From a virus, in IMG/VR virus record IMGVR_UViG_3300043446_003430, positions 1-54,653 of that record: DNA of 54,653 nucleotides; one strand, 5' to 3'. Position numbers and translations under genes: made by a program. The notes under the pieces were generated by a model that was not told where the DNA came from, searched no databases, and was given only the letters and a program-made list of their open reading frames with translations. Below are positions 7,805-54,142 of the stretch, one piece after another. Numbering within the stretch: the first letter of the stretch is position 1; every line of letters starts with the position of its first letter.

Positions 7805-10318
7805 TCAAAACGAGAAAAACTCATTGATTGCTTCAGCGTCTTCGCTATAAAGATCCCATTTAAGAGCCTCATAGAAGCTCTTGAGCTTCTTTTCTAACTC
7901 AGCGTCCCAGATACGGTTACGGTCAATATACTGATTGATGAAGTCCATAACTACCTTCGGATCTTTGCCGTCGTCCTTGAACGCAAGTCCATCCAGCCCA
8001 AATGGATTGCTCTTAAGATATGCCCACTTGATCTTGCCACCGTTCATAATTGGTTCCGTTTCTGACAGGCTGTATCTCTTTAGCATATCGTTATATGCGA
8101 GCGCAGCCTTGCATTGGGCGGTCGAACCATCTACGAAATTGAACAGTCCACGGTCTTTGGGATTGAAATCCGTCTTGGCATCTGTGTTTGATATAAATCG
8201 CACAGAGGTATTTTTGGCAATATCTTCCAGATTGAATGATTTCATCGAAGCCTTGAAGTCCAGAATCTTCTTGTCCAATACAGTCTTGTCGGTTCCTCGC
8301 AGGATGTCCTCCAACACGGAACTCATAAAGTCTCTGAACTTCTTGGGGTAGGACGAGCGCACAACATCAAGACCCTTGATTTCGATATCGTTGGTGTCCT
8401 TGCTCAGTTCCATATTATAGACCTTGAGCATAGCATACCGCTTCTTTACGATCCAGAATGCCGCCTGAGCAACAACGTCGGGGGCAATCTTGATGCGATT
8501 GTCTGTGCTATTGAACATCTTAACCATCATCACTTTATAGAAGTCGTTAAGACCGTCCGCGACCTCGTTGATGGTCTTGATGGCATATGGCTTGATATCC
8601 TGTATCTTCTCGTGTTTGGCGAGCGAATTGATATCCAGATACAAGGAGTCCGTGTCGATGTATATGACATAGTCCTTGTTGGAAGTATCGCATCGCTTGT
8701 TGAAGCGAGCATTCACAAACTTGGCACTGGTCTTGATGATTTCCTGACCAGTCAATGTGACAGCGGATGCATTATCAAGGTCATAGAATCTGAAGATAGG
8801 AAGACCAAGAACACCGTAGAGCGAGTTAAGTAGAATCTTCTGCACTTGCTGGCGGCGTTTCCAGAAAGTGGTAGCAGCCTTGTCGCCGCTATCCGATGCC
8901 TCTTTCATCTTGTTCTTATACTCCACACGTTCCGCAAACCACTTCTTTAGAATGTCTGGGATGCAGCCGATCTTTTTTTGGTCATATACCACGCCGTTTG
9001 CGCTTACGGACAGATTATTCTCACCAAAGAATTCATTCAATTGCTTGTATGTATACTTGTCATCCGCGAAGTCAACAACCTCCTCTGTCTGTTTGGCATA
9101 CTTCTCCGCACTCCAATTGTTGATGACTGCCATCTTGGTCTCGGGAGAGATGTTGATGCTCATAATCACGCTGGGATACAGGGAATTGATATCCGCCGAA
9201 CATACCCAGTCATAACGGCCTGGCACAGGATCTTTTACATATGCTCCAACAAATCCCTCTTCACCATCATCGTCGTCACCATCAAAATCGTCATCGTCTT
9301 TGGTCTGCGGCTTGTTTGGTGCAACCAGTTTCTTGCGACGAAGATATGTAAGCAAAGCACCTTCAAGGAACTTGGATGAGATATGAAACTCCTCATATCC
9401 AACGTGGCAAACGTGACAGATGCTCATCGCAAGGTCGATGAACTGCAACTTGTCGTTCATCTTGCGAACAAGCACAATATCGTGCAAGTTGTATTCGATG
9501 AACTTGTTGATGTCAGTCTTCTTTAGATTATCCAGCGAGCCTTCATAATCCACCTTACCTACACCAAGTTCTTCCTTGGCAACAGTATCCAGTCGATAGT
9601 TGGGAAGATTCTTCTGGCTGTATTTCTTGTACAAGAGAAGATAGTCGAGCGTGTTGACGCCAGCGATTGTCATCTTGTTCTTGAACTTGTTGAAATAGCA
9701 CACGTTGATAGGAGACAACTGTCCCGCCGTGTCTTCATCAAACACTTTCAATAGCCTTGCGTGCAGATATGGAAAGTCAAAGCCGTCAATGTTCCAGCCA
9801 GTTGCAATTGTGGGCTTTACTTGCTTCCATCTGTCCAAGAACGCTTTAAGCAAGTCTTCCTCGTGAAGATATGAAGTCACCTCCGCACCGTGCATCTGTC
9901 CAGCCTTCACAACTCCCTCTTCATCAAGCACAAAGCAATAATACTTGTTGTTGAACACATCGCACAACGCAATAGCCGTGATCTTCTGAACAGGATGTTC
10001 CACATTGGGATATCCTCCGGTGGAATCCACTTCGATGTCAAGCACCGCGAGCCGATGGTTAATGGACACATCGTCGCTGCCACCATAAACATCTATCAGA
10101 AAACGAGTTTCAACAGGAACATCCGATTCAAGAAGCGAGGAGTCGCGAGGATTGAATTTTTCAACCCGTTCAAGTTCTTGACCATAAATAGACTTATATT
10201 TGCCACCCTGCTTCTTGCGATATGCATACGGCACATACTTGACTCTGGCATAACCATTCTGGTCATCCCAAACGTGCACGAAGTTGGCCTTGCGGTCATA
10301 GAATACGGCTTGATACAT
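7805..10318 (-). CDS. 43: Family B DNA polymerase (gp43-like)
   Basis: The 837-aa replicative polymerase has all expected motifs. Proofreading exonuclease: ExoI D94-I-E96, ExoII N176-to-D181 (GWNIDGFD), ExoIII Y276-x3-D280. Polymerase: motif A DINSLYPS (D376), motif B KILLNSLYG (494-502), motif C YIDTDS (D555, D557). An acidic insertion, DDDDFDGDDDD near 341-351, lies between the exonuclease and palm. The C-terminus ends INEFFSF, a probable clamp-binding peptide like that of T4 gp43. It is slightly shorter than T4 gp43 (898 aa). A TTGACA-type promoter lies just upstream and a weak AGGA precedes the ATG. Confidence 0.97.
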   Translation of the reverse strand: MYQAVFYDRKANFVHVWDDQNGYARVKYVPYAYRKKQGGKYKSIYGQELERVEKFNPRDSSLLESDVPVETRFLIDVYGGSDDVSINHRLAVLDIEVDSTGGYPNVEHPVQKITAIALCDVFNNKYYCFVLDEEGVVKAGQMHGAEVTSYLHEEDLLKAFLDRWKQVKPTIATGWNIDGFDFPYLHARLLKVFDEDTAGQLSPINVCYFNKFKNKMTIAGVNTLDYLLLYKKYSQKNLPNYRLDTVAKEELGVGKVDYEGSLDNLKKTDINKFIEYNLHDIVLVRKMNDKLQFIDLAMSICHVCHVGYEEFHISSKFLEGALLTYLRRKKLVAPNKPQTKDDDDFDGDDDDGEEGFVGAYVKDPVPGRYDWVCSADINSLYPSVIMSINISPETKMAVINNWSAEKYAKQTEEVVDFADDKYTYKQLNEFFGENNLSVSANGVVYDQKKIGCIPDILKKWFAERVEYKNKMKEASDSGDKAATTFWKRRQQVQKILLNSLYGVLGLPIFRFYDLDNASAVTLTGQEIIKTSAKFVNARFNKRCDTSNKDYVIYIDTDSLYLDINSLAKHEKIQDIKPYAIKTINEVADGLNDFYKVMMVKMFNSTDNRIKIAPDVVAQAAFWIVKKRYAMLKVYNMELSKDTNDIEIKGLDVVRSSYPKKFRDFMSSVLEDILRGTDKTVLDKKILDFKASMKSFNLEDIAKNTSVRFISNTDAKTDFNPKDRGLFNFVDGSTAQCKAALAYNDMLKRYSLSETEPIMNGGKIKWAYLKSNPFGLDGLAFKDDGKDPKVVMDFINQYIDRNRIWDAELEKKLKSFYEALKWDLYSEDAEAINEFFSF

Positions 10319-10324
10319 ACAAAT

Positions 10325-10352
10325 ATCCTACCAGAACAGGCAGGATTGTCAA
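10325..10352 (-). promoter_or_regulatory. Sigma70-like promoter of the DNA polymerase gene
   Basis: Minus-strand TTGACA (complement of 10347-10352), a 16-base spacer, then TAGGAT (complement of 10325-10330). The polymerase ATG is at 10318. Confidence 0.45.
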
Positions 10353-10356
10353 GGCT

Positions 10357-10806
10357 TCAGATAACTGTAACGCTGTCGAATCCCTCGTCTTTTACAGGAG
10401 GATACAGCTTGCTGGCTTGCTTGTCTATTACCCACTCCGGAACTTTTCTCTGGCGTTTGTTATTCTGTGATTTACATACACTTACAGGAGTGTCAACAAA
10501 GTATGCACGCACCTCGGCATTGTTTGCTTTGGCAATATCAATCCAGTCTTTTCTATCTCTTACAGAAAGACTTGTTGCATCGATAATTGCATTCTTGCCT
10601 TGTGACAAAATATCATTCACTCTCTTTTTGGCAATTTCAAATACCTTGCCGTTTTGACTTTGGTCTTCGGCATTTCCAGTCAATTCAAGTCTAATGACAT
10701 CTGTTTCAACAAGTTCCGCATTAAGCGAAGTCTTCAAGCCATTGGCATATGTGCTCTTGCCAGAGCCGCTAATGCCAACCATCACTGCTAATATGGGTTT
10801 ACTCAT
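10357..10806 (-). CDS. Polynucleotide 5'-kinase (kinase domain only)
   Basis: This 149-aa P-loop kinase resembles the N-terminal 5'-kinase domain of T4 polynucleotide kinase. Walker A GISGSGKST lies at 11-19, ETDVIRLEL near 34-42 holds the likely catalytic Asp36, and NAIIDATSLS lies near 92-101. A basic lid region contains KRQRKVPEWV. The C-terminal 3'-phosphatase (HAD) domain of T4 Pnkp is absent. It would phosphorylate 5'-OH RNA or DNA ends for the ligase. Its start overlaps the stop of the upstream glycosyltransferase gene by 4 bases. Confidence 0.85.
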   Translation of the reverse strand: MSKPILAVMVGISGSGKSTYANGLKTSLNAELVETDVIRLELTGNAEDQSQNGKVFEIAKKRVNDILSQGKNAIIDATSLSVRDRKDWIDIAKANNAEVRAYFVDTPVSVCKSQNNKRQRKVPEWVIDKQASKLYPPVKDEGFDSVTVI

Positions 10807-22054: not shown

Positions 22055-24115
22055 TTAGGTATTTGCCTTAGACAAAAACTTCTTGTTCAGAGTATGGGCG
22101 ATCTGAATAACGCTGTGAGTATCAATGAATTGCGCATCCTTGCCATACATGGTCTTGAAATTCTTTACATTCACAGGAGACATATGGCTGGCGTTTTCAA
22201 CATAATAGCTGATCACTTCCACTCCTTTTTCCATCATCTTGTTCACTTGCTTGCGGGTATGGCGCGAGGCAATATCGTGGAAATAACCAGGATTAAAAGC
22301 GGGTTCGCCATCAGACAAGTTTACAAAATAGCTATCCATTTCATATGTAGACTGGGGAATATGATCGAGAATCGCTTGGAACGCCAAACCTTCCGGAGTG
22401 GAACCGTTGGGATAAAGCATAGGGAACAGCGAAGTGATCTTGTTGAACTTGTCTTTGCGCGAATCATATGCGAGCACGATATACGGCACTTCACCGGAAC
22501 GACCACGAGATACGTGCACTCCGCTACGGAAAGAAATGCTCACTGACACGTTGTTGATCATACTCGCAGCCTTTGCGATGGCAACAAGAGTGGTCAGTGT
22601 CTTGTCCCACTTGCTTGCCATAGAAGAAGACGCATCAACGGAAATATGAAGATGAACATTCTTGTATTTATCAACAGCGGTCTGATAGAACAGATTATCC
22701 GCCTGATATCCAAGACCGGAAATCAATCGCTTGTCGATCTTGCCTCTTTCAAGACGAGTGAATTTGGTGGTCTTTACCTCCGAACGAATCTGTAGACGAC
22801 GACCAAGCATAGTACCAAGTTCTACTCCAGCCTTAACACCTCTTGCGGCAATAGGATTTTCCGAAGAACAAGAATATTCGCTGGTGTATGGAAATTCCTT
22901 GGTAGTCATCAGTTCCTTGGTCATATTGGTGACCACAACGCAATCCACCTTTGGAACACCCTCTTCTCCTCCAACTGACACCATATTCACTCCGCTCTTT
23001 TCAAGCGCCTGTAGCTTGCTCAATACCTTATTGTCGAACGGAACCTTGATGTTCGTGCGATTGATTAGCGATTCCTGTTTTTGCAGGATTTTTTCCAGTC
23101 GCTTGATTTTCTTTTCAGACAATCCCGCATAATCATCTTCCTTCTCGGGCTTTTCTTCTGACTTCTGCGGAGATGTGTTGGAACTTTCTGTTCCACCAAG
23201 AATGTCGTCAATATCAGAAGAAGTGCTGTCCTGCTGACCTTGACTTTCTCCAGTATCGGAAATATCTCCGGAGTCATCCGTCGAATCATCCGAAGACTGC
23301 TCACCATCGGACTCGTCGTCGGAATCGCCTGAGCCAGAGCCTCCGGAAGATTGCTTATCTGTGTTGTCCTTCTCCGAAGTGACATCATTCATGATTTCTT
23401 CCACAATCTTAAGCGAAAGATCAAGACGACCCTGCGGGGTGGAAAGTTCGTCGCGCAGAATATTGTTCAGATCAAGAAGTTCGTAGATCTTGCGAAGACG
23501 AGGAAGTGCATCAAGGTCTGTATTCTTGTTTGTGAGATTAACAAAGCGGAACTTATAGCTCTTGATGGTGGATGTGCGAAACGCTTCAGACTTCAATCCC
23601 TGAGCGATTTCGGGAAGATTGAAATAACGATCATACAGAGCAAGATAATATCCACGATAACCCGGTGCGTTCTGGTATACCCAAGCGTCGATATAACGGT
23701 CTTCGACGACATTAAGGATATACTTGCAGAAGTCTCCCAGTTCGTTGTAATTGAATTTTCCCTTGGCGGCTTCAGTAACGCTCTTGGGTAATTTTCCCCA
23801 AAGCATCTTGATGAGGGTAAAGTCGGACTTCACGATGTGTGCGGCTTCGTGAAGAGCGAGACCCACCGTGGGGTCGAACTCTCCCTTGGCAAGCTCGCCA
23901 CCGATATACACTACCTTGCCATCTGTCATCGAAGTGCTCTTGTCCGCAAATCGGACAGGAATGCTCTTGCCAGTCAGAATATAGACAAAGTTGCTGATGG
24001 CTCGGCGGTAGCCAGCCAATTTAAGCAGACCATATGTGGACTCCACATCCAGCTTTTCGGTGGAGAAATCCTCACCAAGCCAGAACTTAGAATACTCTGT
24101 GTATTTTTCTTTCAT
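22055..24115 (-). CDS. VWA-domain protein with HExxH motif (CobT-like)
   Basis: A 686-aa partner of the MoxR ATPase encoded just upstream. The N-terminal region has LHEAAH (H89-E-A-A-H93), a zinc metallopeptidase signature, with a possible third ligand in VVEDRYID near 137-144. Residues ~250-330 are a long acidic Ser/Asp/Glu linker. The C-terminal domain is a von Willebrand A fold with a MIDAS motif D494-A-S-S-S498 and LSDGEPAF further on. Similar CobT-like proteins occur in T4-like phages beside CobS-like ATPases. Cobalt chelation is unlikely here; a chaperone or peptidase role driven by MoxR is more plausible. Confidence 0.75.
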   Translation of the reverse strand: MKEKYTEYSKFWLGEDFSTEKLDVESTYGLLKLAGYRRAISNFVYILTGKSIPVRFADKSTSMTDGKVVYIGGELAKGEFDPTVGLALHEAAHIVKSDFTLIKMLWGKLPKSVTEAAKGKFNYNELGDFCKYILNVVEDRYIDAWVYQNAPGYRGYYLALYDRYFNLPEIAQGLKSEAFRTSTIKSYKFRFVNLTNKNTDLDALPRLRKIYELLDLNNILRDELSTPQGRLDLSLKIVEEIMNDVTSEKDNTDKQSSGGSGSGDSDDESDGEQSSDDSTDDSGDISDTGESQGQQDSTSSDIDDILGGTESSNTSPQKSEEKPEKEDDYAGLSEKKIKRLEKILQKQESLINRTNIKVPFDNKVLSKLQALEKSGVNMVSVGGEEGVPKVDCVVVTNMTKELMTTKEFPYTSEYSCSSENPIAARGVKAGVELGTMLGRRLQIRSEVKTTKFTRLERGKIDKRLISGLGYQADNLFYQTAVDKYKNVHLHISVDASSSMASKWDKTLTTLVAIAKAASMINNVSVSISFRSGVHVSRGRSGEVPYIVLAYDSRKDKFNKITSLFPMLYPNGSTPEGLAFQAILDHIPQSTYEMDSYFVNLSDGEPAFNPGYFHDIASRHTRKQVNKMMEKGVEVISYYVENASHMSPVNVKNFKTMYGKDAQFIDTHSVIQIAHTLNKKFLSKANT

Positions 24116-24117
24116 TA

Positions 24118-25062
24118 TCAGAACGGGGTAACGCTCTTGTCGTCGTTCTTGTAAAGATTTTCAATAGGTACGTTTTCGGAAGAAATATACTTTTGCACGA
24201 TCTGCTTCACCATAGTGCGTTCGCTGTCAACACCACCATCGTCAGGATAGTCAGGATAGATGATGCTCTCAGCAAGTTCAATCAACTTGAAGCCATCAGT
24301 AGTAAGCTCTGCCATCTCTTTTACGCTGCGGGTGGAGATGAACTTGGAAAGCTTTCCTTGTGTGGCAAACTCTCGTGTAGCAGCGGCGATTTCAGTAACC
24401 GCAAGCATAATACCCATATCCGCATCGGGGCAGTGTTCCTTCAACAGTTCCATTTCGGAGTTTTGCGAAAGAATGTCAACCTCAATCTTGACGGTAAAGC
24501 GATCAAGCAAAGCCTTGTCCATCACGCGGGTAGCAGTATATTCATTGCCGACATTGGCGGTAGCGATAAAGCACACACCATCAGCGACTTGAACCTTCTC
24601 ACTACCAAGCTTCTCGTCGAGACGAAGATATCGCTGAATATAGTCAAGCGGAGTCAACAGAATGTTCCAAGCATCGGGGTGAGCGCGAGAAAGCTCGTCA
24701 AGGTGAATGATGCTATTGGGGGTGCGAAGAGCTTTAACAAACGGAGACTCGTCGAACAATGTGCCAGTATCCTTGTTGAAATGGGTGTTGCCAATTAATG
24801 TGGCACGAGGATCTTGGGTGGCTCCCATATTAAGATAGAAATAATCGTTCCGGCGACCAAGAGCATCTACAAGGCATTGAATAGCATATGTCTTACCGTG
24901 ACCAGAAGGACCAACGATGAGGATGTTCTTGCCGCGTAAAGCACTACGAACAAGATACTTCCATTTAAGCTCCTTCATAAAAAGCTTAGACGGTTTAATG
25001 TCAATCGCATTAGCAACCGTGTTTTTGATGTCGGAAGTCATAGGCTTTTTGCTCTTATTCAT
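24118..25062 (-). CDS. MoxR/CobS-like AAA+ ATPase
   Basis: A 314-aa AAA+ ATPase. Walker A GPSGHGKT at 51-58, Walker B IIHLDELSRA at 118-127, sensor CFIATANVG near 168-176, and LLDRF arginine-finger region after it. MoxR ATPases work with VWA-domain proteins, and the next gene, 2 bases downstream, is such a protein. Homologues are often labelled cobS in cyanophages. I infer a remodelling module acting on a host or virion target. It has a promoter-like TTGACT upstream. Confidence 0.85.
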   Translation of the reverse strand: MNKSKKPMTSDIKNTVANAIDIKPSKLFMKELKWKYLVRSALRGKNILIVGPSGHGKTYAIQCLVDALGRRNDYFYLNMGATQDPRATLIGNTHFNKDTGTLFDESPFVKALRTPNSIIHLDELSRAHPDAWNILLTPLDYIQRYLRLDEKLGSEKVQVADGVCFIATANVGNEYTATRVMDKALLDRFTVKIEVDILSQNSEMELLKEHCPDADMGIMLAVTEIAAATREFATQGKLSKFISTRSVKEMAELTTDGFKLIELAESIIYPDYPDDGGVDSERTMVKQIVQKYISSENVPIENLYKNDDKSVTPF

Positions 25063-25068
25063 ATATAG

Positions 25069-25098
25069 ACACTATGAACACTTTTTATACAAAGTCAA
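25069..25098 (-). promoter_or_regulatory. Sigma70-like promoter of the MoxR-VWA pair
   Basis: Minus-strand TTGACT (complement of 25093-25098), an 18-base spacer and TAGTGT (complement of 25069-25074), just before the MoxR ATG at 25062. Confidence 0.4.
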
Positions 25099-25101
25099 TA
25101 A

Positions 25102-25125
25102 AAAACCCTCGATTTCGAGGGTTTT
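25102..25125 (-). terminator. Intrinsic terminator after the 237-aa gene
   Basis: A 10-bp stem (aaaaccctcg / cgagggtttt) closes a 4-base loop, followed on the minus strand by a T run. It lies 27 bases after the stop at 25152 and directly before the MoxR promoter. Confidence 0.8.
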
Positions 25126-25151
25126 AGAAGTTATTGATTATCAATCGTTGA

Positions 25152-25865
25152 TTATGACTTCTTTTCTTTTAGAGCAGGAGTATCTTTTAGTTTAACGGAA
25201 AGCTTATCTGGACTTTCTGTATCCTTGTCGTGCTTTAGATATGCACTCTTTGGTTCTGCTTTATTTTTATCTTTTAAGACTTTGTCTACAATCTTTTCAA
25301 TCTTATCTACGATATTTCCACCAAGTGCTGGTGCTACATCTTTGTTAATAGGAGCATTTTCCTTGTTTGCTTTTTCTTCTGCCTTTACGTCTGTCTTGTC
25401 CGCGATGTCAACTTGTCTTTCTTCGTCAACATCGTCCATTTTGTCGGCTTCATTGGCTTCTTCCTTCTCGGATGGCTTCTTTCCAAATCCCTTTAAGCTC
25501 TTGTCATATGCTTTCTGAACATATGTCTTTTCGCTATCCTTGGCGTGTTGCTTTACAAGTTCCATCGCTGCTTCTAATGAGATTCCACGAGCAATCTTTC
25601 TTTCCGACTCGTTGGTTACGGAAACAACATCATAGCAATCTTCTGCGTTCTTTGTGACTTCGGCGGTCTGTTTTTCTGTTGCTCCTGCGGTCTTATTTGT
25701 GCCGTGGATTTGACGAACATTGGCATCTTTGCCCATAGCCTTGATCAGTGCTTCTTCAGCATTCTTGTCTTTTTTGTCTGTATGAATTGGTGTACCAAAC
25801 TGGTTATTGGTGATTTCTTGGATGACAAGTTTCTTGATGGCTTTTTTTAGAAGATCTCTATTCAT
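25152..25865 (-). CDS. Charged protein with capsid-targeting-like N-terminus
   Basis: A 237-aa, very Lys/Glu/Asp-rich protein. The first 18 residues (MNRDLLKKAIKKLVIQEI) form an amphipathic helix with I15-Q-E17, an (I/L)xE site like those of the tagged proteins at 50-53 kb. One compact segment (about 80-125, CYDVVSVTNESERKIARGIS) may be folded; the rest looks disordered. It forms a single-gene unit with a TATTTATA element upstream and a good terminator downstream, inserted between early-type genes. I infer an internal head or core protein. Confidence 0.7.
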   Translation of the reverse strand: MNRDLLKKAIKKLVIQEITNNQFGTPIHTDKKDKNAEEALIKAMGKDANVRQIHGTNKTAGATEKQTAEVTKNAEDCYDVVSVTNESERKIARGISLEAAMELVKQHAKDSEKTYVQKAYDKSLKGFGKKPSEKEEANEADKMDDVDEERQVDIADKTDVKAEEKANKENAPINKDVAPALGGNIVDKIEKIVDKVLKDKNKAEPKSAYLKHDKDTESPDKLSVKLKDTPALKEKKS

Positions 25866-35052: not shown

Positions 35053-35919
35053 TTACACTTTGCTCTTTTCCACAAAGAGTTTGTATTCTTCTCTGTCGTT
35101 GCTTTTTACAGGAACAACTTCACCGCTTAATCCAACAACCGCCGCAGTATTTCCTTCGGCGTCTCTATATTCGCCATATGGTTCAGCTATCCATCCTTTT
35201 TTAAGAGCAAACTTCTTTGATATGGATGCATATTCTTCTGGTGGAGTTGTTACAACCGGAACGTCTATTGCGGGAGATTCTGCTGATTTTTTTGCTTCAG
35301 GAGCGGAAGGTTCGGTTGGGGTTGTTGGTTGTGTTTTTTCTGGGGCTTCGGGTGATTTTTCAACTGCACCCGGTGCTTTTGCTGGAGCGGACAGTTTTTC
35401 GGATGAAGAAGGTTGTGCAGGTGTCTCAGAATCTTCGTCTCCCATCATATCCGGTGTAACTTGGCCGGGTTGTCTGGAAGGCTTTGTATCTGCGGCTGGT
35501 GCTTGTGGTTTTGGGGCTTGTTGTTTTTTAGCTGGTTGAACTTGCGTTGCTGTTTGTTGTGTCTGTCTCTTTTGCTTACCCTTGCGTTTATAATACAAAT
35601 TCATTCCACCCTTGCCGTGCGTTGGATCTGAAATGGAATGAGTTCCTTTCTTTATGGCGGCGTCACGATAGTCCTTTGATGGGAATGTGACAAGCCATCC
35701 ATCTTTATTGAAAGCCTGTCTGTCGGGGTATTTTCCTTCACTAATAAATGCATTTACAAATTCATTAACGATCTCTTCATTTTCGCAGGCATTATACATG
35801 GCTTCCGCAACAACCTGTATATGTTCCGTGTTCTTTAGGTCTACTACACCATCCGGTATTCTTGCATCCAATGCTGCTTCGGAAATTATAGATGATATAA
35901 ACTCGGTCACTGTTTTCAT
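35053..35919 (-). CDS. Presumed internal-head protein with T4-like capsid-targeting sequence
   Basis: This 288-aa protein starts MKTVTEFISSIISEAALD, close to the T4 capsid-targeting sequence (MKTYQEFIAEA-type) with I12-S-E14 as the (I/L)xE cleavage site. The next segment, RIPDGVVDLKNTEHIQVV, parallels the region after the tag in the neighbouring 495-aa protein. The middle is Pro/Ala/Gln-rich and disordered (about 130-225). The C-terminal ~60 residues may be folded (FALKKGWIAEPYGEYRDAEG). The frame runs to 35964, but Met at 35919 overlaps the upstream stop as ATGA. Confidence 0.75.
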   Translation of the reverse strand: MKTVTEFISSIISEAALDARIPDGVVDLKNTEHIQVVAEAMYNACENEEIVNEFVNAFISEGKYPDRQAFNKDGWLVTFPSKDYRDAAIKKGTHSISDPTHGKGGMNLYYKRKGKQKRQTQQTATQVQPAKKQQAPKPQAPAADTKPSRQPGQVTPDMMGDEDSETPAQPSSSEKLSAPAKAPGAVEKSPEAPEKTQPTTPTEPSAPEAKKSAESPAIDVPVVTTPPEEYASISKKFALKKGWIAEPYGEYRDAEGNTAAVVGLSGEVVPVKSNDREEYKLFVEKSKV

Positions 35920-37403
35920 AAATCTAATCCTTTCAAATTGGATAAATTGGTAAGCACGTTGCATACAATTCCATTTTGCGCCATGCTATCAAATTCAAGC
36001 TTTATCTTATTCGTATCAACAACTACGGCGCTGTTTTTTCCTTGTGCGGCAGAAACAATCAACATTCCTGTATACTTTGTTTCTACCAATTTTGCAATTT
36101 CATCAGATATTACTTTTAAGTTATATTTTTTATCAAAGAAGTCAAACTGCATTGCCATATCTTTATAATCTTCGTCGCTGCCTCCTATGGTTTGTTTTAC
36201 TGGCAAGTCTAACTTTTGAGGCTCTTTTGGATTTGTACTCAGGGCGCTGCTTACTTTTGTCATTTGCTGCAACGCGGCGGTTGAATCTGTTGCAAATTCT
36301 TCTTTGTTTGGTCCGACCGCAATCGCTACTTTTGCCACATCTTTTTTCTTTTCTATTGGCAGCTCAAGTTTAACTGAAACTATTACCAGCGCTTTGAAAA
36401 GTCCCTTCGGCATATCGGCGGTATTTGGAGACTTTACAAAATCCTCAAACAATCTAACTTCTTCCTCCGTCGGTGGTCTTGCTCCTTTGTACAAATACTC
36501 GTCCGTCGCCGGGTCTTTTCCGCTCAATACTTTTAATAAAAATTCTCCGAATCCTTTGTTTTTTCTCATCTGTTGCGCCAGGTCTTCGATTGCATTCTTG
36601 AATCTACTGTTAGAGAATCCATCCAACGTGGATGAACTTATTCTCACCGTATCCTTTGCTTTTTTTCCACCGACTTCCTTTACTTCCACTCTTCCGTATC
36701 CCTCGACATTAATCAAGTCCACGTCCCCAATACCACCAGATTTTACATCACGAAGCATAAACACGAATGCAAGTTCTCCTTTACCAAGCCCTTGGTGTTT
36801 AACATCATTCATTGCATCCACGAATTTCTTTTGATTTCCGGAATTTGTATTGTATATCTTTAAAGCATTATCAAGTGATTGATTGTTGTATATGCTTTTC
36901 GCATAGTCGTATATTTTTGCTTTGTTTATTATGGCGGATTTCATTTGCTCAACATATTTTTCTCCAACCGCCTTACCATTCGGTGCCATCAAATCTTCCC
37001 ATATATTTTTTTCTATTCTGCGTGCTCTTCTTTCGGCGTCCAATTCAAGTTTTGCTTTTTGTGCTGGTGTATACCAAGGTGCCTTGTTTGCAATTATATC
37101 CTCCACGGGAGTGCCATCTGCATAATTTGGATGACCAACGGTAACTATTTTTCCCGTTTTTTTGTCTTTTTCACGAAATTTGCTCTGCGGTTTTTTTAAT
37201 TTTGCAGGTCTTCCGCCTTTAGTTTTTCTTTCTTCATCCGACACATCCCAGTCTCCTCTCCAGAGTTCTTCCAAATCCATTTCACTCAATATCTCATTCA
37301 ATACATCAATATTTTCTGGTGTATCGTGTCCACTAACAAGACCATCCGGCGAACGCATCGCCCATTCATTTAGTATATACTCTATGATCTTGTCTTTTTC
37401 CAT
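35916..37403 (-). CDS. Presumed internal-head protein with PD-(D/E)XK-like motif
   Basis: At 495 aa, this protein begins with a tag-like helix (IIEYILNEWAMR, L11-N-E13) and then RSPDGLVSGHDTPENIDVL, related to the start of the next gene product. Near 225-245 lies GIGDVDLINVEGYGRVEVKEVGG, in which D227/D229 and E240-x-K242 fit a PD-(D/E)XK nuclease core; Glu210 could be the N-terminal acid. It may be a nuclease packaged with the DNA, or a degenerate fold used structurally. A TATTTATA element lies just before its ATG. Confidence 0.7.
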   Translation of the reverse strand: MEKDKIIEYILNEWAMRSPDGLVSGHDTPENIDVLNEILSEMDLEELWRGDWDVSDEERKTKGGRPAKLKKPQSKFREKDKKTGKIVTVGHPNYADGTPVEDIIANKAPWYTPAQKAKLELDAERRARRIEKNIWEDLMAPNGKAVGEKYVEQMKSAIINKAKIYDYAKSIYNNQSLDNALKIYNTNSGNQKKFVDAMNDVKHQGLGKGELAFVFMLRDVKSGGIGDVDLINVEGYGRVEVKEVGGKKAKDTVRISSSTLDGFSNSRFKNAIEDLAQQMRKNKGFGEFLLKVLSGKDPATDEYLYKGARPPTEEEVRLFEDFVKSPNTADMPKGLFKALVIVSVKLELPIEKKKDVAKVAIAVGPNKEEFATDSTAALQQMTKVSSALSTNPKEPQKLDLPVKQTIGGSDEDYKDMAMQFDFFDKKYNLKVISDEIAKLVETKYTGMLIVSAAQGKNSAVVVDTNKIKLEFDSMAQNGIVCNVLTNLSNLKGLDL

Positions 37404-39247: not shown

Positions 39248-41712
39248 AATACGGTCAGCGGTCTTACTTGGGCGGTGATTGTGGTCGTCCAATTTTTGTC
39301 TTCCACGTTCTGTTTAACGTCCGATATCTGCCATACAGCGGTAGTATAGCTATATTCCGGTGGTACGTGGTCCAAAAGAAATTGGGACAGGAAGTTGATA
39401 CCAGATATTCCCATCAGTTCAATTGTCACTGTTGTGCCCGGCATTATTCCGTTATTTAGATATGGGGCGTTTTTATTAGGTAGTGTCAGATTATAGTTAA
39501 GGAAATCCTTGTATTTTTCGCATATATAATACTTTTTCAAATAACTTTCATCTTTGTTATTTGGATCAGGAACATAATAGATCAGGAAAGATTCGGCGTT
39601 TCCTTCTTCTCTTATTTTACGTTTTCTGTCTTTCGCCGCTTGGGCGTCTTTGACCGCTTTTTCTTTTTGCTTCGTTTCTACTTCGGTTCTTTTCTTTCGC
39701 TGTTCCGGTGTCTCGTTTGTTGGCGTGGATGGAGCATTACTTGATTCTGACTTGTTTGGTAATTCTCCCTTCACATACAATCTGTCTCCAGCTGAGTATC
39801 TGTTTGTTATTGGATTGGCGGCAACATTCTTTGTCTGAGTAGAACCGTCTGGATCTTCGTCTGGATTTGCACTTTGAAACACAAGCTGATTCATCATTTC
39901 TTGGCTGATTTTTACATCAAACGATACAGATTTCATGAATGCGGAATCCAAAGAACCTAATGTTATTATTGGCAGATCCGCCGCATCGTTCTTTGTTGAT
40001 ATTCCAGCCATATTCTCATCATATACCGAGTATGTTTGATTTCCATATTCGGCGGGAATAAGTTTGAGTTGGCATATCTGGCAGAACGCCTCGTTGATTC
40101 CCTGAAGCAATTGTTCTATCATCTTCAGCGCGGAATCGTTGTTCTCGACAATCTTCTTGAAATAATCGGCACTGATGAAAATATCCTTCAAATATCCCCA
40201 GTATCCAGATTTTAACTTTTGCGCAGTCTTACCGCCATCAGCTGGAATGTCCTTGTCTTCATATATCGGAAAGGAATTGCCGCCGGGATTTATTGCTGTT
40301 TTAAGATCATCGAATATGTCTATGTTTCCGAACTCGTATTTTTTTCTCAGAGACTGTATTTTTTCCTTGAACAAGCGTTCATATTCTCCGGAAGGAGGAG
40401 TTGGACTTGGTTTTCCAGGATTTGATTTTTCATTCTGATATGTGAATCTCGGTGCATATCGGTTGGGAATCAACACGTTTGGATTCGAAGATTTCAGGAA
40501 TGGGCTGGCGACCACTACCGTCTCCATTATATCCAACTGCCTAATCGTGGCAGTTTTTGTGCCAACCATTTTTATTTCAAAGAATGCATTGATGATATCC
40601 TGCACCAGATCCATTCTAAGCCAGAATCCATCTTTGTTTTTTGGATGCGTCTTATCCGACATACGAAACACGCGCTCTTTTATATTGTCCTTTGTTCCAA
40701 CTTCAACATAAGGATCCAATCCTTGACCGTCTCGTTCTTCATCATATTCATATATCTTGGTCAACAGCTTGAGATCTTTTCTCTTATTAACATATTCAGG
40801 CTTGTTGGAATCTATGTTGTTGAGGTCATCTTTTACAAACGATCTAAAGTTTTGTAGAGGAGTTCTTGTGTCCCCCTTCTTTTCTGTGACTTCTTTACTG
40901 TGTATTTGCTCTCCTTCTATGAGGCGATTTGCGTTCATTATGGTGGTATGACAATCATAACCACCGGCTTCGTTTAGCTTGAAACTATAATCCGTGATAA
41001 ATCCAAGGCCGGCGTCATAGTTTCCATTTGATTTTTTCACCCATTCTAAAGTGTAACTTGGATCAACAAACATGTTGTTTATCCAGTCCAAATCCGTCAA
41101 GTCAACCAGCGAGATGTTGTCATAATTATTCCATCCCCATTCAACCAAGCACGTGATTCTTGGTGTAAGAAAGTATGGAGCCAGATAGTTCAATTGCGCA
41201 AGAGAATAACATTTCCAGTTGATTGTTATTTTTCTGCACAGATTTGGAAAGCTGGCATTTGATCCGGCCATTTCACAAGACACCGATTCCACGCTCGGAG
41301 GTGGGCGATGTGGAAAATCCATAACTTGTCTGTTTTGGTTGTTCTTGGCATTGCTTACCGATAACAGATGCTCGATTCTATCGTTTGGTATTTTGTGCGG
41401 ATTTCCTCTGGAGTCTACGCCGATTGTTATCTTATTGTCTTGATTGAATCCATTTCGATTAAATCCATAACTGTCATCAAAGCCATACGTTCCTCCCATA
41501 ACAAATCCATCCAATTTTGCTGCTTCTGGATGCCTTGATATTCCATTTGAGAAAAATCTAACCCACGCCGTTCTTGGTCCGCTATATGGTTTTCCATTTT
41601 CCATATTTGGATTTTGGCCGTATTCTTTTGAACGACGATTCAATTCACCTATTATCCACTGAGGAAGTGGATGCAATCCCCAAGGTACTACTGTAACAAT
41701 GTCGTTGGCCAT
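39244..41712 (-). CDS. Large baseplate/tail structural protein
   Basis: This 822-aa protein lies in the baseplate cluster. It has many aromatic beta-rich stretches (RITCLVEWGWNNYDN, SLVDLTDLDWINNMF) like those in phage baseplate and hub proteins. A Lys/Glu/Ala-rich helix lies near 665-700 (RKKRTEVETKQKEKAV). The C-terminal ~120 residues (MPGTTVTIELMGISGI, YTTAVWQISDVKQNV) resemble the end of hub-like proteins. I cannot assign a specific T4 equivalent. It overlaps the small gene downstream by ATGA and follows the gp53-like gene by one base. Confidence 0.65.
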   Translation of the reverse strand: MANDIVTVVPWGLHPLPQWIIGELNRRSKEYGQNPNMENGKPYSGPRTAWVRFFSNGISRHPEAAKLDGFVMGGTYGFDDSYGFNRNGFNQDNKITIGVDSRGNPHKIPNDRIEHLLSVSNAKNNQNRQVMDFPHRPPPSVESVSCEMAGSNASFPNLCRKITINWKCYSLAQLNYLAPYFLTPRITCLVEWGWNNYDNISLVDLTDLDWINNMFVDPSYTLEWVKKSNGNYDAGLGFITDYSFKLNEAGGYDCHTTIMNANRLIEGEQIHSKEVTEKKGDTRTPLQNFRSFVKDDLNNIDSNKPEYVNKRKDLKLLTKIYEYDEERDGQGLDPYVEVGTKDNIKERVFRMSDKTHPKNKDGFWLRMDLVQDIINAFFEIKMVGTKTATIRQLDIMETVVVASPFLKSSNPNVLIPNRYAPRFTYQNEKSNPGKPSPTPPSGEYERLFKEKIQSLRKKYEFGNIDIFDDLKTAINPGGNSFPIYEDKDIPADGGKTAQKLKSGYWGYLKDIFISADYFKKIVENNDSALKMIEQLLQGINEAFCQICQLKLIPAEYGNQTYSVYDENMAGISTKNDAADLPIITLGSLDSAFMKSVSFDVKISQEMMNQLVFQSANPDEDPDGSTQTKNVAANPITNRYSAGDRLYVKGELPNKSESSNAPSTPTNETPEQRKKRTEVETKQKEKAVKDAQAAKDRKRKIREEGNAESFLIYYVPDPNNKDESYLKKYYICEKYKDFLNYNLTLPNKNAPYLNNGIMPGTTVTIELMGISGINFLSQFLLDHVPPEYSYTTAVWQISDVKQNVEDKNWTTTITAQVRPLTVL

Positions 41713-49284: not shown

Positions 49285-50250
49285 TTACTTCTCTGTTTCT
49301 TTGGCTTTCTTTTTGCCTTTAAAGAGAACTTGAGCAATACCCATCAATACTATGGCACCACCTGCCGTTGCGCCTATAGCCCACATAGGAATGCTTGTAG
49401 CCATATACGCAAGACCAAGGAAGGTAACGCCGGATAGTATCATACTGAAGCTCTTGAGCAATACGCCCAATACAAGGAATAGTATACCCAGTCCTCCAAG
49501 TATTCTTACGGTCCATACCATAAGTTCGCGTTGTTGCGCCTCTTTTAGCAGACGAACTTGGTCGGCTGCTTCAGCACGTACTCTTTCAACTTCAGCTTTC
49601 TTTTCCGCTTCAACTTTTTCAATAGCAATGCGATTTGCTTCCTTCATCGCCGCTTTTTCTTTTTCCTTCTGCTGAATCAATTGATCTGCTTCATCAAGTG
49701 CTGCCTTTTGATTTACAGCAAGATCGATGGTTGCTTTGTATTTGATATACAATTGATCAACCGTCTTTGATCGCTCGTCCTCGATTTCCTTTTGTATTTC
49801 TGCCTTTTCTGCGTCAGTCAGTTTGTCTGTGCGCATCATTATTTCTTTTGAACGCAAGTGAGCAATGGTTGTATTGATGTCAGTCTTTTTGTTTTTCTGA
49901 GTAACGTGATATACACCATAGTTGAGTTCAGCAATCTTATCGAAATTGTCTTGGTCTTTCTTCTTTAGGTCGTCGTATGCCTTCATGGTTTCTGCCTTGA
50001 GTTTAGCATACTCATCTTCCATCTTCTTTTTGTCTTCAGCAGCTTTGGCTTCTACCGCAGCTGCTTTTTCCATAGCCTCTTTTGCTGCTTGGGCTGCGAC
50101 TACTGCCGCCACATTGACTTCCGGTTCTTTTACTGGTTCTGTTTTTGCCGCTTCCTTTTTGCCAAAGCTTGGAAGACTTGGCATCTTTGGAACCATTCCG
50201 CATCCAGACAACAATAAAACCGTTAATGTCAATGTGATGAATTTTTTCAT
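49285..50250 (-). CDS. Lipoprotein with coiled coil and C-terminal membrane spans (unimolecular-spanin-like)
   Basis: A 321-aa protein. Residues 1-17 are a lipoprotein signal with lipobox LSGC (Cys17); the residue after Cys is Gly, not Asp, favouring the outer membrane. Residues ~35-240 are mostly Ala/Glu/Lys coiled coil. Residues ~243-310 contain about three hydrophobic segments (ILGGLGILFLVLGVLL, MILSGVTFLGLAYM, AIGATAGGAIVLMGIA) followed by a basic tail. A lipid anchor at one end and membrane spans at the other fit a unimolecular spanin, though known ones have a single C-terminal span. The gene sits with tagged internal-head genes, so a virion role in DNA entry is also possible. Confidence 0.6.
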   Translation of the reverse strand: MKKFITLTLTVLLLSGCGMVPKMPSLPSFGKKEAAKTEPVKEPEVNVAAVVAAQAAKEAMEKAAAVEAKAAEDKKKMEDEYAKLKAETMKAYDDLKKKDQDNFDKIAELNYGVYHVTQKNKKTDINTTIAHLRSKEIMMRTDKLTDAEKAEIQKEIEDERSKTVDQLYIKYKATIDLAVNQKAALDEADQLIQQKEKEKAAMKEANRIAIEKVEAEKKAEVERVRAEAADQVRLLKEAQQRELMVWTVRILGGLGILFLVLGVLLKSFSMILSGVTFLGLAYMATSIPMWAIGATAGGAIVLMGIAQVLFKGKKKAKETEK

Positions 50251-50254
50251 ATGC

Positions 50255-51046
50255 TTATTTCAGACCTTTCTTTTTCATCAGATATGCTCTGAGTTTGTTG
50301 ATTTTTGCAATTTTTGCTGCTTTTTCTGAAGCGGCGAGCCTTGCCATATCAGGTTCACCGGAATCTGTATCGGAACTGGTGTCCGATTTGGCTTTTTGAA
50401 TAGCGTTTTGAATCACTGTGGCATCTAGGCTCATTGGTGTTTCTTCGCTGTTCTTTTCAGCAACTGCATCTGCCACTTCTTGTTCGGTGGCATTTGGGTT
50501 GTATTTGATAAAATCTTCAACGGCATCTTCTGTTCTAGCAATCTCGGCTTGAGATGCTGGACCGGTTGATACAGCAGGTGTTGCTTTTGGACGACCAAGG
50601 TTTGGATTTTCACCCTTCTTGACATATGGTCCTTTTGGAGCTTCTGTTGGTGTGCCGTCTGGAATGGTCTTGTGTCCCTTGACGACCCAGCCTGTTGGAG
50701 AACTTGGATCTTCCACCTTGAACTTGCTACCAACAGCACCCTTTACACGAGCCATCTCATCAATCTCTTCACGAATCATTTGAAGAATTTCTTCTTTGAT
50801 ACTTCCAACCTTTTGTGGATTGGCTGGCTTCTTTACCACAGGAAGCTTCTCACCTTCTTCTTTTTCCTTTGGCTCGGAAGTTGGAGTCAACGACTTTGAA
50901 TCAGCAACCTTCTCGGTATGTTCAGTTGATTCCTTGGATTTCTTGAATCCAGACAATCCTTTGGTTTCATCAAGTTGCCCTTGTTTTACGGCAGCAACTT
51001 CTTCTGCAATTACTTTCAACAACGCTTTTAGTTCTGATTTTTTCAT
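50255..51046 (-). CDS. Tagged internal protein, 263 aa
   Basis: Starts with MKKSELKALLKVIAEEV, the shared N-terminal helix, with I13-A-E15 as a possible (I/L)xE cleavage site. A related segment recurs internally near 83-97 (IKEEILQMIREEIDEMA), also with I-R-E. Most of the protein is charged, Pro/Thr/Ser-rich and probably disordered. SPTGWVVKGHKTIPDGTPTEAP near 115-138 looks like a short module. The C-terminus is basic (LRAYLMKKKGLK). I infer a packaged internal head protein, from the tag and neighbours. Confidence 0.7.
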   Translation of the reverse strand: MKKSELKALLKVIAEEVAAVKQGQLDETKGLSGFKKSKESTEHTEKVADSKSLTPTSEPKEKEEGEKLPVVKKPANPQKVGSIKEEILQMIREEIDEMARVKGAVGSKFKVEDPSSPTGWVVKGHKTIPDGTPTEAPKGPYVKKGENPNLGRPKATPAVSTGPASQAEIARTEDAVEDFIKYNPNATEQEVADAVAEKNSEETPMSLDATVIQNAIQKAKSDTSSDTDSGEPDMARLAASEKAAKIAKINKLRAYLMKKKGLK

Positions 51047-51068
51047 AATAGTATATTTTAAAGTTTTA

Positions 51069-51380
51069 TTATTTTCCAGTGAATGGATTTACACGTTTCA
51101 TTCCGCCTTCTATCCAGTTCTTGATGTCTTCCATATTCTTCTTGTTCAGTCTGTCGTATGGATTTACACCCGGTATTGTCACCCAATGAATTTTTCCGTC
51201 CGGACCTTTTACATAATATTCTGTTTTGACATTATCTTCTTCTCTGTCCTCTTCCCACCATAAGTTATATGACCCTTTGGATGTTTCTATGGTGGCTATG
51301 TGATTATCAACTTCAGGATTGTTGGTATACATCTCCTGTATGACTTCCCTGATAAGCTGTTTAAGTTCGGACTTTTTCAT
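51069..51380 (-). CDS. Tagged internal protein, 103 aa
   Basis: The N-terminus MKKSELKQLIREVIQEM is nearly identical to that of the 134-aa and 263-aa proteins nearby; I10-R-E12 and I14-Q-E16 are candidate cleavage sites. The rest is a small domain rich in Trp/Tyr and acid (YNLWWEEDREEDN, YYVKGPDGKIHWVTIPG). Function unknown; packaging in the head is inferred from the tag. Confidence 0.7.
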   Translation of the reverse strand: MKKSELKQLIREVIQEMYTNNPEVDNHIATIETSKGSYNLWWEEDREEDNVKTEYYVKGPDGKIHWVTIPGVNPYDRLNKKNMEDIKNWIEGGMKRVNPFTGK

Positions 51381-51383
51381 ATA

Positions 51384-52754
51384 TTACCACTTGCGGCAGG
51401 ACCAATAACGGGCAGATGTTCTTGGACCAGGATTTGAACAACGATGGCGTGCTCTAAAGCTCTTGCGGCGCTTTGGATTGCTCTTCTTTATGCGCATCTT
51501 TTTGTCACCGAAGTTAACCTTTTTTACATTACCGGTCTTTGGGTTTTTGACATATACCTTGAACTTCTTGACATCGCCACGCATCGGTTTGCCGAGCGGA
51601 ACTTTGCGACCGCGATATTCAGCTTCTTCGAGAGGAGCATCTGCATTCATGTCTCCATAAATTTCATAAAACTCATCACCTTCACAAGTATGCTCATCAC
51701 CTTCTGGGATCATATCCCAATTTGTTTTGCGATAGCATTCTTCCCAAGCTTCGTTGGTTCCTTCTTCCATGACGGATTCATAACATTCCCAGCATTCATC
51801 AACGTCTTCGTGCAGTTGACCTGTCCACGATCTCAATGTCTTGATGACATCTCGTTTGCTTAGATTTTCTTTTTCCACATTTTCGCCATTACGCAGTGAC
51901 ATTCTCAAATTGAATTTATCCAGAGTTTCATCCTTGGCGGTGATATATGCATCGGTAACATCAGACACTCCATTGGTATTTAAAATGAACTGAACTCTTC
52001 CGTTAATTGAACTCACCTCAACGTCTGCGATATTTCTGCCGCCAATATCCATGACTTTTCTTAGAGCAGAACGCATTTGTTGGACGATATAGTCTTTTCC
52101 GCTCGTGGCATATTCTTCTTCTACCATTTCGCGTATCAGTTTTCTTAGTTGTTCTTCTTTCATAAGTTGTTCTTCAGTTTTTTTGCGACCTTGGCAATGT
52201 GCTCTTTGACTAAATCCTTTTGGATGACTGCAATCAATGCTGCGTTTGTATTTCTCGCTCCATTTTTCATCCAGTTCCTGTGTTGCTTCTTCAACACCTT
52301 CCGATTTGCTTCCCCATTTACCTTTGCTCTTACGGCACTTTACCAATGCACCGGAAGCATATGCACTTGGCCACACCTTGTAACGAGCCTTGACCTTGTA
52401 ATAGCAAGCGTCTTTCTTTTCGTTCATCAGTGCCTCAGAAACTAGTTCTCCGCCACAAATTGGGCATATATGATTTTCCATAATAGTTTCCTCAGTTTTT
52501 ACATTCTTTGCTTTGCCACTTCTGTCTGGATTTGGATCTTCACGGCGTTTTCTGCGTGCAGCAGTTGCTCTTGCTTTCTTGCCCATTGCTTGTGCCGACT
52601 TTAATGGACGACACTTTGGCTTACCTTCGCTTGACTTTTCTCGTGCACATTGTCCACGAATTTTACCATCTGGACCAAAACGAACCCACTTCTCCTTGAA
52701 CCATTTGTGGAGATTTTCTTCTATCTCGTGGATTTGTTTTTCTATATTATCCAT
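51384..52754 (-). CDS. Modular basic protein, candidate processed precursor of head peptides
   Basis: A 456-aa mosaic. Module 1 (~20-75): RFGPDGKIRGQC, Cys/Lys/Arg-rich. Module 2 (~97-150): C97-x2-C100, then CYYKVKARYKVWPSAYASG and KCRKSKGKWG. Module 3 (~164-192): KYKRSIDCSHPKGFSQRAHC. Module 4 begins at 198 with an internal copy of the tag, MKEEQLRKLIREMVEEEY. Module 5 (378-456) is strongly basic and ends RYWSCRKW. Candidate (I/L)xE sites at IHE10, LDE163, IRE209, LHE315 and LEE377 fall largely between modules. I infer a precursor cut by the prohead protease into DNA-binding peptides. Confidence 0.7.
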   Translation of the reverse strand: MDNIEKQIHEIEENLHKWFKEKWVRFGPDGKIRGQCAREKSSEGKPKCRPLKSAQAMGKKARATAARRKRREDPNPDRSGKAKNVKTEETIMENHICPICGGELVSEALMNEKKDACYYKVKARYKVWPSAYASGALVKCRKSKGKWGSKSEGVEEATQELDEKWSEKYKRSIDCSHPKGFSQRAHCQGRKKTEEQLMKEEQLRKLIREMVEEEYATSGKDYIVQQMRSALRKVMDIGGRNIADVEVSSINGRVQFILNTNGVSDVTDAYITAKDETLDKFNLRMSLRNGENVEKENLSKRDVIKTLRSWTGQLHEDVDECWECYESVMEEGTNEAWEECYRKTNWDMIPEGDEHTCEGDEFYEIYGDMNADAPLEEAEYRGRKVPLGKPMRGDVKKFKVYVKNPKTGNVKKVNFGDKKMRIKKSNPKRRKSFRARHRCSNPGPRTSARYWSCRKW

Positions 52755-53065
52755 TATGCTTTGTCCTGTATAGCTTGTTGTTTACGAATAATATCAGCTT
52801 GTTGCTTTTGCAGCTTGGCCTTCATGCGCTCTGCTCTTTGTATCTTTGGCTGAATGGTCTGTTGCAGTTTGGCAACTTCACCTTCTATCTTTTTAATGTT
52901 GGTGGTAAGCTTGTCACTTTGAGATTTAAGATTGGCCAATTCTTTTTTATCTGCATCGCTTAAACCTGTTTCGGCTGCGGAACTATCTGTGACATCTCCG
53001 TCAACTTCGCTGAGTTTTCTGCGAACAATTTCCTGAATGACGCCTTTTAATTGAGAACGTGTCAT
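52754..53065 (-). CDS. Tagged coiled-coil protein, 103 aa
   Basis: Starts MTRSQLKGVIQEIVRRKLSE, a variant of the shared tag with I10-Q-E12 and a second L-S-E. After a short acidic linker, residues ~38-103 form one long coiled coil (KKELANLKSQSDKLTTNIKK). It overlaps its upstream neighbour by ATGA and its downstream neighbour by one base (TAATG). Possibly a scaffold-like or internal head component. Confidence 0.7.
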   Translation of the reverse strand: MTRSQLKGVIQEIVRRKLSEVDGDVTDSSAAETGLSDADKKELANLKSQSDKLTTNIKKIEGEVAKLQQTIQPKIQRAERMKAKLQKQQADIIRKQQAIQDKA

Positions 53066-53466
53066 TTGCCGTGCATCTTTAGGATTTTTTCGGCAGCGTC
53101 TTTGGCTTGCTTGGCAAGTTCAACTTCACGCTTTTCTTCTGGATTGCTCATATCAGTTTCATCGTGTTCTGCATTCTGCTCTTTGGAAATTTCCTGAACT
53201 GATTCAGTTTCCCAAGCTGTCCACATTTCGTTGACTTTCTTGTGTCCCTTTTCTTTTTCATAAAAGATCTTCCACATCGTGGCATATGCCTTTTCTTCTT
53301 CGCCTTTATACTGATTCAGTATTTTATCGTGCAGCTTCTTTGGGAAGTTTGGTGGAGTCTTTTCATCCAGTCTGCTTTCGTCCGCCACACCAAGTGGTGC
53401 AAAATCGTCTTTCATGACTTCTTCTACTACTTCACGAATAATTTGTTTGAGTTCAGAGCGTTTCAT
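53062..53466 (-). CDS. Tagged internal protein with KAYATMW domain, 134 aa
   Basis: The tag MKRSELKQIIREVVEEV (I10-R-E12) is followed by L-D-E (another possible site) and the domain KTPPNFPKKLHDKILNQY, then EEKAYATMWKIFYEKEKG. Proteins with the P-x-F-P...K-I-L-x-x-Y...K-A-Y-A-T-x-W pattern occur in many large phages, with unknown function. The C-terminal part is a charged helix. First gene of the tagged operon, following a TATTTATA element; AGGAA before the ATG is a weak SD. Confidence 0.7.
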   Translation of the reverse strand: MKRSELKQIIREVVEEVMKDDFAPLGVADESRLDEKTPPNFPKKLHDKILNQYKGEEEKAYATMWKIFYEKEKGHKKVNEMWTAWETESVQEISKEQNAEHDETDMSNPEEKREVELAKQAKDAAEKILKMHGK

Positions 53467-53647: not shown

Positions 53648-54142
53648 TCAGAACTGTAGAATTGCGTAATCGTATGTCAACGTGACGTTGATCAGCAGTG
53701 CTTCCTGAGAAGCCCAATCAAGGCCAGAGCCGTTGAAATCGACTGTTGAAGGAAATGCTCCTTTGATGTCCCACTTTTCAACGATGTCACCAACAGGTCC
53801 AAGAACTTGGATCTGAACGTCCTTCTTGTACATATCGGCATATCCGTTACGACCGGTCACGGATTCGTGAGCAAGACGTACCCATTCCATGCAAGCTTGT
53901 GCAGCAGAAGGAACGATTGGGTCATAAAGAGTGATAGCAATATCTGCCCATTCGCTCTTACCCTTGAGCTTGCGCTTTAGGTTGATGTGATCCATAACGA
54001 TAGTTCCGTTTGTGATGCTTGGGCGAGCGGCTGCTTTGATGAGATAAGCAGGAATTCCATCAATGTTCATGATGAAACGGTTCTGCACCTTGGGCTCGAA
54101 TGCAGTAAAAAATATCTGGTTTTGGTCGAGTAGTTCTGCCAT
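53648..54142 (-). CDS. 19: Tail tube protein (gp19-like)
   Basis: A 164-aa protein matching T4 gp19 (163 aa) in length and pattern: an N-terminal FEPKVQNRFIMNIDGIPAYLIK, central LKRKLKGKSEWADIAITLYD and QACMEWVRLAHE, and C-terminal LDWASQEALLINVTLTYDYAIL. It polymerises into the inner tube of the contractile tail. It forms a single-gene unit: a TATTTATA element upstream and a strong terminator downstream, as expected for an abundant structural protein. Confidence 0.92.
   Translation of the reverse strand: MAELLDQNQIFFTAFEPKVQNRFIMNIDGIPAYLIKAAARPSITNGTIVMDHINLKRKLKGKSEWADIAITLYDPIVPSAAQACMEWVRLAHESVTGRNGYADMYKKDVQIQVLGPVGDIVEKWDIKGAFPSTVDFNGSGLDWASQEALLINVTLTYDYAILQF

Follow-up and report, generated by a model that had tools for sequence, protein, structure and literature searches.

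A common N-terminal helix as a putative prohead-targeting propeptide in a branch of T4-like phages

In phage T4, the genes of the prohead-core proteins gp67 and gp68 lie between those of the portal (gp20) and the protease (gp21). The gp21 protease cuts after L/I-x-E with a free middle residue, and the core proteins are cut into multiple fragments (PMC9026906). T4 internal proteins carry N-terminal propeptides of 10-19 residues, with which they enter the prohead; they are then cut by gp21 and injected (PMC9026906). All three T4 internal proteins now have restriction-inhibitor roles (PMC9026906; PMC12373910), and the ip genes of T-even phages have likewise been located by their common signal (PMC12373910). 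The targets are known for only a few of the internal proteins that T4-like phages inject, and most of these targets are type IV restriction enzymes (PMC12373910). Virions of cyanophage S-SM1 have been found to contain a cytidylyltransferase, T4-GC190 (PMC3037559).

The DNA analysed here (the window) is a 54,653-base IMG/VR fragment of a T4-like phage, with a gp19-like tail tube gene (PF06841). Replication and tail genes were identified by reading its open reading frames (ORFs); no head genes were seen among the ORFs of this 54.7-kb fragment. On the minus strand, between the tail tube gene and baseplate-type genes, lies an operon in which four neighbouring genes encode proteins that start with a common helix, the tag, with the consensus MKKSELKxLIREVxEE (Table 1). 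At E 1e-4 the bodies behind it cluster separately, which bears out the sequence-only reading of four unrelated proteins with one N-terminal helix. The same reading had described a fifth protein with the helix inside; this is the 456-aa protein, where the tag begins at residue 198. In the 456-aa family the tag is found internally only, and the internal placement is kept in the relatives listed. The 263-aa protein holds a second tag-related helix, KEEILQMIREEIDEM, in its interior. The product of the last gene of the operon (49285-50250) has no tag; at 321 aa, it looks like a lipoprotein with coiled-coil and transmembrane parts. Outside the operon, a 237-aa protein has a weaker related N-terminus; in relatives its homologues directly adjoin a tagged gene or a homologue of the 456-aa protein (for example 50217-50927 beside 50931-52307 in the relative G001, and 8756-9466 beside 9470-10360 in locus L109).

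Table 1. Positions of the tagged genes, tag helices and candidate cleavage sites in the window.
Feature	Position	Strand	Basis or remark
gp19-like tail tube gene (context only)	53648..54142	-	PF06841 29.2 bits; PHROG 4542 E 1.2e-24
Tagged protein 1, 134 aa	53062..53466	-	ORF; 16 distinct orthologues aligned
Protein 1 tag helix MKRSELKQIIREVVEEV, residues 1-17	53416..53466	-	
Protein 1 candidate site L33-D-E35	53362..53370	-	LxE in 15/16 orthologues, variable middle residue
Tagged protein 2, 103 aa, coiled-coil-like body	52754..53065	-	ORF; orthologue alignment
Protein 2 tag helix MTRSQLKGVIQEIVRRK	53015..53065	-	
Protein 2 candidate site L18-S-E20	53006..53014	-	LxE in 13/13 orthologues, middle residue Q/N/S/T/R
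456-aa protein, basic Cys-containing modules	51384..52754	-	PHROG 727, 3477, 7595 matches
Internal tag MKEEQLRKLIREMVEEE of the 456-aa protein, residues 198-214	52113..52163	-	
Tagged protein 3, 103 aa	51069..51380	-	ORF
Protein 3 tag helix MKKSELKQLIREVIQEM	51330..51380	-	
Tagged protein 4, 263 aa	50255..51046	-	ORF; 17 distinct orthologues
Protein 4 tag helix MKKSELKALLKVIAEEV	50996..51046	-	
Protein 4 candidate site L25-D-E27	50966..50974	-	E invariant, [ILM] at P3 in 89%, variable P2
Protein 4 second candidate site I95-D-E97, internal, after second tag-like helix	50756..50764	-	IxE in 17/17, variable middle residue
237-aa protein, weaker related N-terminus MNRDLLKKAIKKLVIQEI, outside the operon interval	25152..25865	-	

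Like the capsid-targeting peptides of T4 IPI, IPII and IPIII, the tag is a short N-terminal peptide on unrelated bodies. It also has in common with the T4 internal proteins that (I/L)xE follows the peptide (in three of four families), that there are several variable genes per phage, and that a gp21-type protease is present, here seen in relatives. Judged by eye, the residues of the tag are not clearly similar to those of the T4 peptides, whereas length and hydrophobic spacing are alike. Further differences are that the predicted propeptide is longer here (16-35 residues), that the P1' residue is mostly not Ala, and that the tag is sometimes internal, between modules. The tag is best regarded as an analogue of the T4 targeting peptide and not as a detectable sequence homologue. 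The giant phages phiKZ and SPN3US, with their ejection proteins, are alike in having many head proteins whose propeptides a gp21-related protease removes at a short motif ending in Glu; phiKZ differs in that its motif is S/A-x-E, and the MKKSELK helix is not described there (PMC9026906).

A scoring matrix was built from the four window tags and run over 2844 proteins of relatives. At a threshold of at least 16 bits, 109 proteins matched, 63 of them with the tag starting within the first five residues, while shuffled proteins gave no match. The tag was found on at least 36-38 body clusters in the relatives, mostly at the N-terminus. I10 was retained in 32 and E12 in 34 of 38 cluster representatives, both residues being favoured by the matrix by construction. 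The tag helix is amphipathic, its moment lying at the 91st-99.7th percentile of window segments. AF2 models were obtained for protein 1 (helix 3-19, low-confidence linker 23-32) and protein 4 (helix 3-28); the two models, of low confidence (mean pLDDT 63, as in protein 1), hint at a helix-linker-body layout.

The small tagged bodies gave no credible function match in Pfam, PHROGs or a PDB fold search, and Pfam matches to a RelB-like antitoxin and to Rep_OBD were dismissed as far below the cut-off. With tblastn against 50,697 phage records, neither the body of the 134-aa protein found a match nor did three tagged families match any isolate; the 20-aa tag as query matched no cultured phage, a query too short to inform. 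A look for virion proteomics on this group of phages found none. No paper containing the strings MKKSELK or MKTYQEF was found, which says little, as peptides are seldom printed in full text.

Candidate cleavage sites were sought by a blind scan of ortholog alignments for a conserved E, a conserved [ILM] two residues before it and a variable middle residue (P2). In gp23 the scan yields one site, QLIDE/A (70 sequences; the slash marks the candidate cut), which lies where T4 maturation cleavage is expected, and in gp21 it yields LTE/A near the N-terminus and LAE/G near the C-terminus. In three of the four tagged families the signature lies just after the tag, with a conserved LxE ending at residues 20, 27 and 35. 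For protein 1, the predicted propeptide comprises residues 1-35, with the body starting at residue 36. The candidate in protein 3, I14-Q-E16 (inside 51330..51380, minus strand), is weakly supported, by only 5 orthologues. Sites are denser in the tagged proteins (4 per 603 aa) than in the untagged window proteins (3 per 4601 aa; p = 0.005), statistics that rest on few families and related sequences. As the scan also picks three untagged window proteins, four portal positions and other proteins, the site criterion alone is not specific and a single match proves little. The P1' residue at the tagged sites is V/I/L, T, K or M and differs from the A/G of gp23 and gp21. The IxE triplets at residues 10-12, which the sequence-only reading had proposed as cut sites, were rejected because E12 is not conserved: orthologues carry Q, S or N instead, and V occupies this position in the 263-aa protein.

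A prohead protease gene was found in the relatives: a gp21-type protease, PF03420 (Peptidase_S77), is encoded by G001, a 297-kb relative whose gp19 is 85% identical to that of the window, and by eight other records. The genes between portal and protease in G001 include one for a tagged protein (274387) and one whose product opens with a tag-like helix (274702). Variable proteins with strong tags occur in this interval across 37 loci having both genes, together with a conserved core protein; in most members of the latter, [ILM]xE closes the helix and the conserved body, (S/T)xTGxVAGY, comes right after it. In the cultured Flavobacterium phage immuto, which has three related tags (102880, 113188, 123355), the interval is organised alike, with MKKSQIVKAVQEVLEE/MSTTGAVGGY, and at locus L389 an exact MKKSELK tag stands on the body of the core protein. 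Of the 64 proteins in the interval, 10 are tagged, compared to 9 of the 382 that these loci encode outside it (p = 6e-5). The tagged genes of the relatives and the core protein with its tag-like helix resemble T4 gp67/gp68 in lying between portal and protease, a likeness of placement; the window genes sit elsewhere, following the gp19-like gene in the tail cluster. Two large uncharacterised tagged families were seen in L325-L444, one with 43 members near terminase or portal and one with 27 members, which lies by the protease in 22 of the 27; comparing a single representative per family with the 50,697 phage records gave no match. In another record, G025 (40193-40621, L162), three TGA codons stand in the reading frame of the S77 protease and may point to TGA recoding or a broken gene.

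IMG/VR was also scanned for DNA encoding MKKSE[LF]K, with the permuted MKSK[LF]EK as control, so that loci were sampled by the tag and not chosen by relatedness. The tag pattern occurred in at least 120 stretches, the permuted control in 52 in all. Among the matches listed, [IL]xE lay within residues 9-24 in 115 of 131 tagged sequences, compared to 8 of 52 controls. On contigs of at least 25 kb, again among the matches listed, Peptidase_S77 was present in 18 of 25 with the tag and 4 of 20 with the control (p = 0.0008), and gp23 in 16 of 25 and 3 of 20, respectively. Within 5 kb of a head gene were 73 of the 127 tagged ORFs among the matches listed and 2 of 29 control ORFs (p = 2.6e-7), a comparison that may lean towards the tag set, its reference head genes having been taken from this clade and from wider relatives. 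The co-occurrence of tag and S77 protease partly restates the presence of the tag in T4-like phages.

We propose that, in a large branch of T4-like phages most of which are uncultivated, the tag is probably a propeptide for prohead targeting. The amphipathic N-terminal helix would dock proteins on the scaffold or core during prohead formation, a gp21-type serine protease (Peptidase_S77) would cut at [IL]xE just after the helix, and the cut would free the body inside the head, so that the bodies would remain in the virion. Some tagged bodies would be prohead-core proteins, with genes between portal and protease; the others, among them the window proteins, would be variable cargo that remains in the head and may accompany the DNA when it is ejected. 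Injected proteins could, as the sequence-only reading suggested, have an anti-defence or host-takeover role. A capsid-targeting tag cut by a gp21-type protease had been suggested from the window alone; the protease in relatives, the gene position, the LxE sites and the co-occurrence with S77 agree with it, and the exact triplets did not stand. If the tag is a packaging signal, a search for it at N-termini would rank unannotated environmental T4-like proteins as candidates for head cargo or host-directed proteins, and the peptide could be tried as a means of bringing reporter proteins into heads of this kind. The chance is close to even, if somewhat below it, that in a widespread branch of environmental T4-like phages an interchangeable MKKSELK-type propeptide is a general packaging code for dozens of unrelated head proteins, including multi-module polyproteins with internal tags that the protease would split into small basic DNA-binding or host-directed proteins; in that case the tag alone would show which proteins uncultivated phages inject.

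The operon between tail tube and baseplate-type genes, the amphipathic helix and the internal position of some tags would also suit an uncut docking domain that is kept and binds scaffold, portal or a tail or baseplate component. This is unlikely, given that a conserved LxE with a variable middle residue stands just after the tag, as in gp23 and gp21, and that the tags of relatives cluster at head genes. It is possible, if on balance doubtful, that the tagged proteins are mainly sacrificial core proteins like gp67/gp68, which shape the head and are then degraded, and not cargo delivered to the host. The tagged genes between portal and protease and the 27-member family by the protease are consistent with such a role, and two sites are conserved in the 263-aa protein, reminiscent of the T4 core proteins with their multiple cuts (PMC9026906). 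The window genes, however, follow a tail gene and vary strongly among relatives, and basic modules are held in common with cyanophage proteins, some of them annotated as structural, all of which is more in line with cargo that is retained or ejected. The sacrificial and cargo roles are not mutually exclusive.

That the common N-terminus is a functionless by-product of gene duplication and 5'-end fusion is highly improbable. Fusions do occur, and some tag copies in G001 are recent: identical tag residues use the same codon in 212 of 278 cases, compared to 127.9 expected. Three consecutive small genes of G001 (139632-140448) have near-identical tags, unrelated bodies and most codons in common, which likely reflects recent tag duplication. 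In the window, however, codon usage predicts 27.5 matching codons among the 68 cases of identical tag residues, and 33 are observed. Codons this near to expectation indicate that the tags were not recently copied and that selection kept the peptide while silent sites drifted; recent duplication as the sole cause of the common tag is thereby ruled out in the window. Tags are moreover found on dozens of unrelated bodies on many contigs.

The basic modules of the 456-aa protein (net charge about +21) recur in cyanophage proteins, and the S-B68 protein that shares them is labelled structural in its annotation. Two cyanophage families each resemble part of the present system: GC119 has the basic modules in common with the 456-aa protein and includes the structural label in S-B68, and GC190 has the start that resembles a capsid-targeting sequence, as the S-SM1 cytidylyltransferase begins MKKFSAFLNE/A. 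Neither carries MKKSELK; their N-termini are of the T4 FLxE type or show no obvious tag. In G001, one gene (24101-25156) fuses the window's 103-aa protein 3 and 263-aa protein with both tags retained. Fusions of this kind suggest polyproteins that maturation would split.

Starts of the T4 type were also seen in the window, MISLLSLINE/A at 3857-5440 and, from an internal Met, MKTVTEFISSIISE/A at 35053-35964. The G001 homologue of the latter protein starts MNNFINNIITE/A, so that a second tag class may coexist with the first. Beside the capsid genes of G001 (283739-284398, minus strand, within L180), a lysozyme-like protein starts with MSIIKLRDLLHEIQLKEAM, which resembles a T4-type targeting start.
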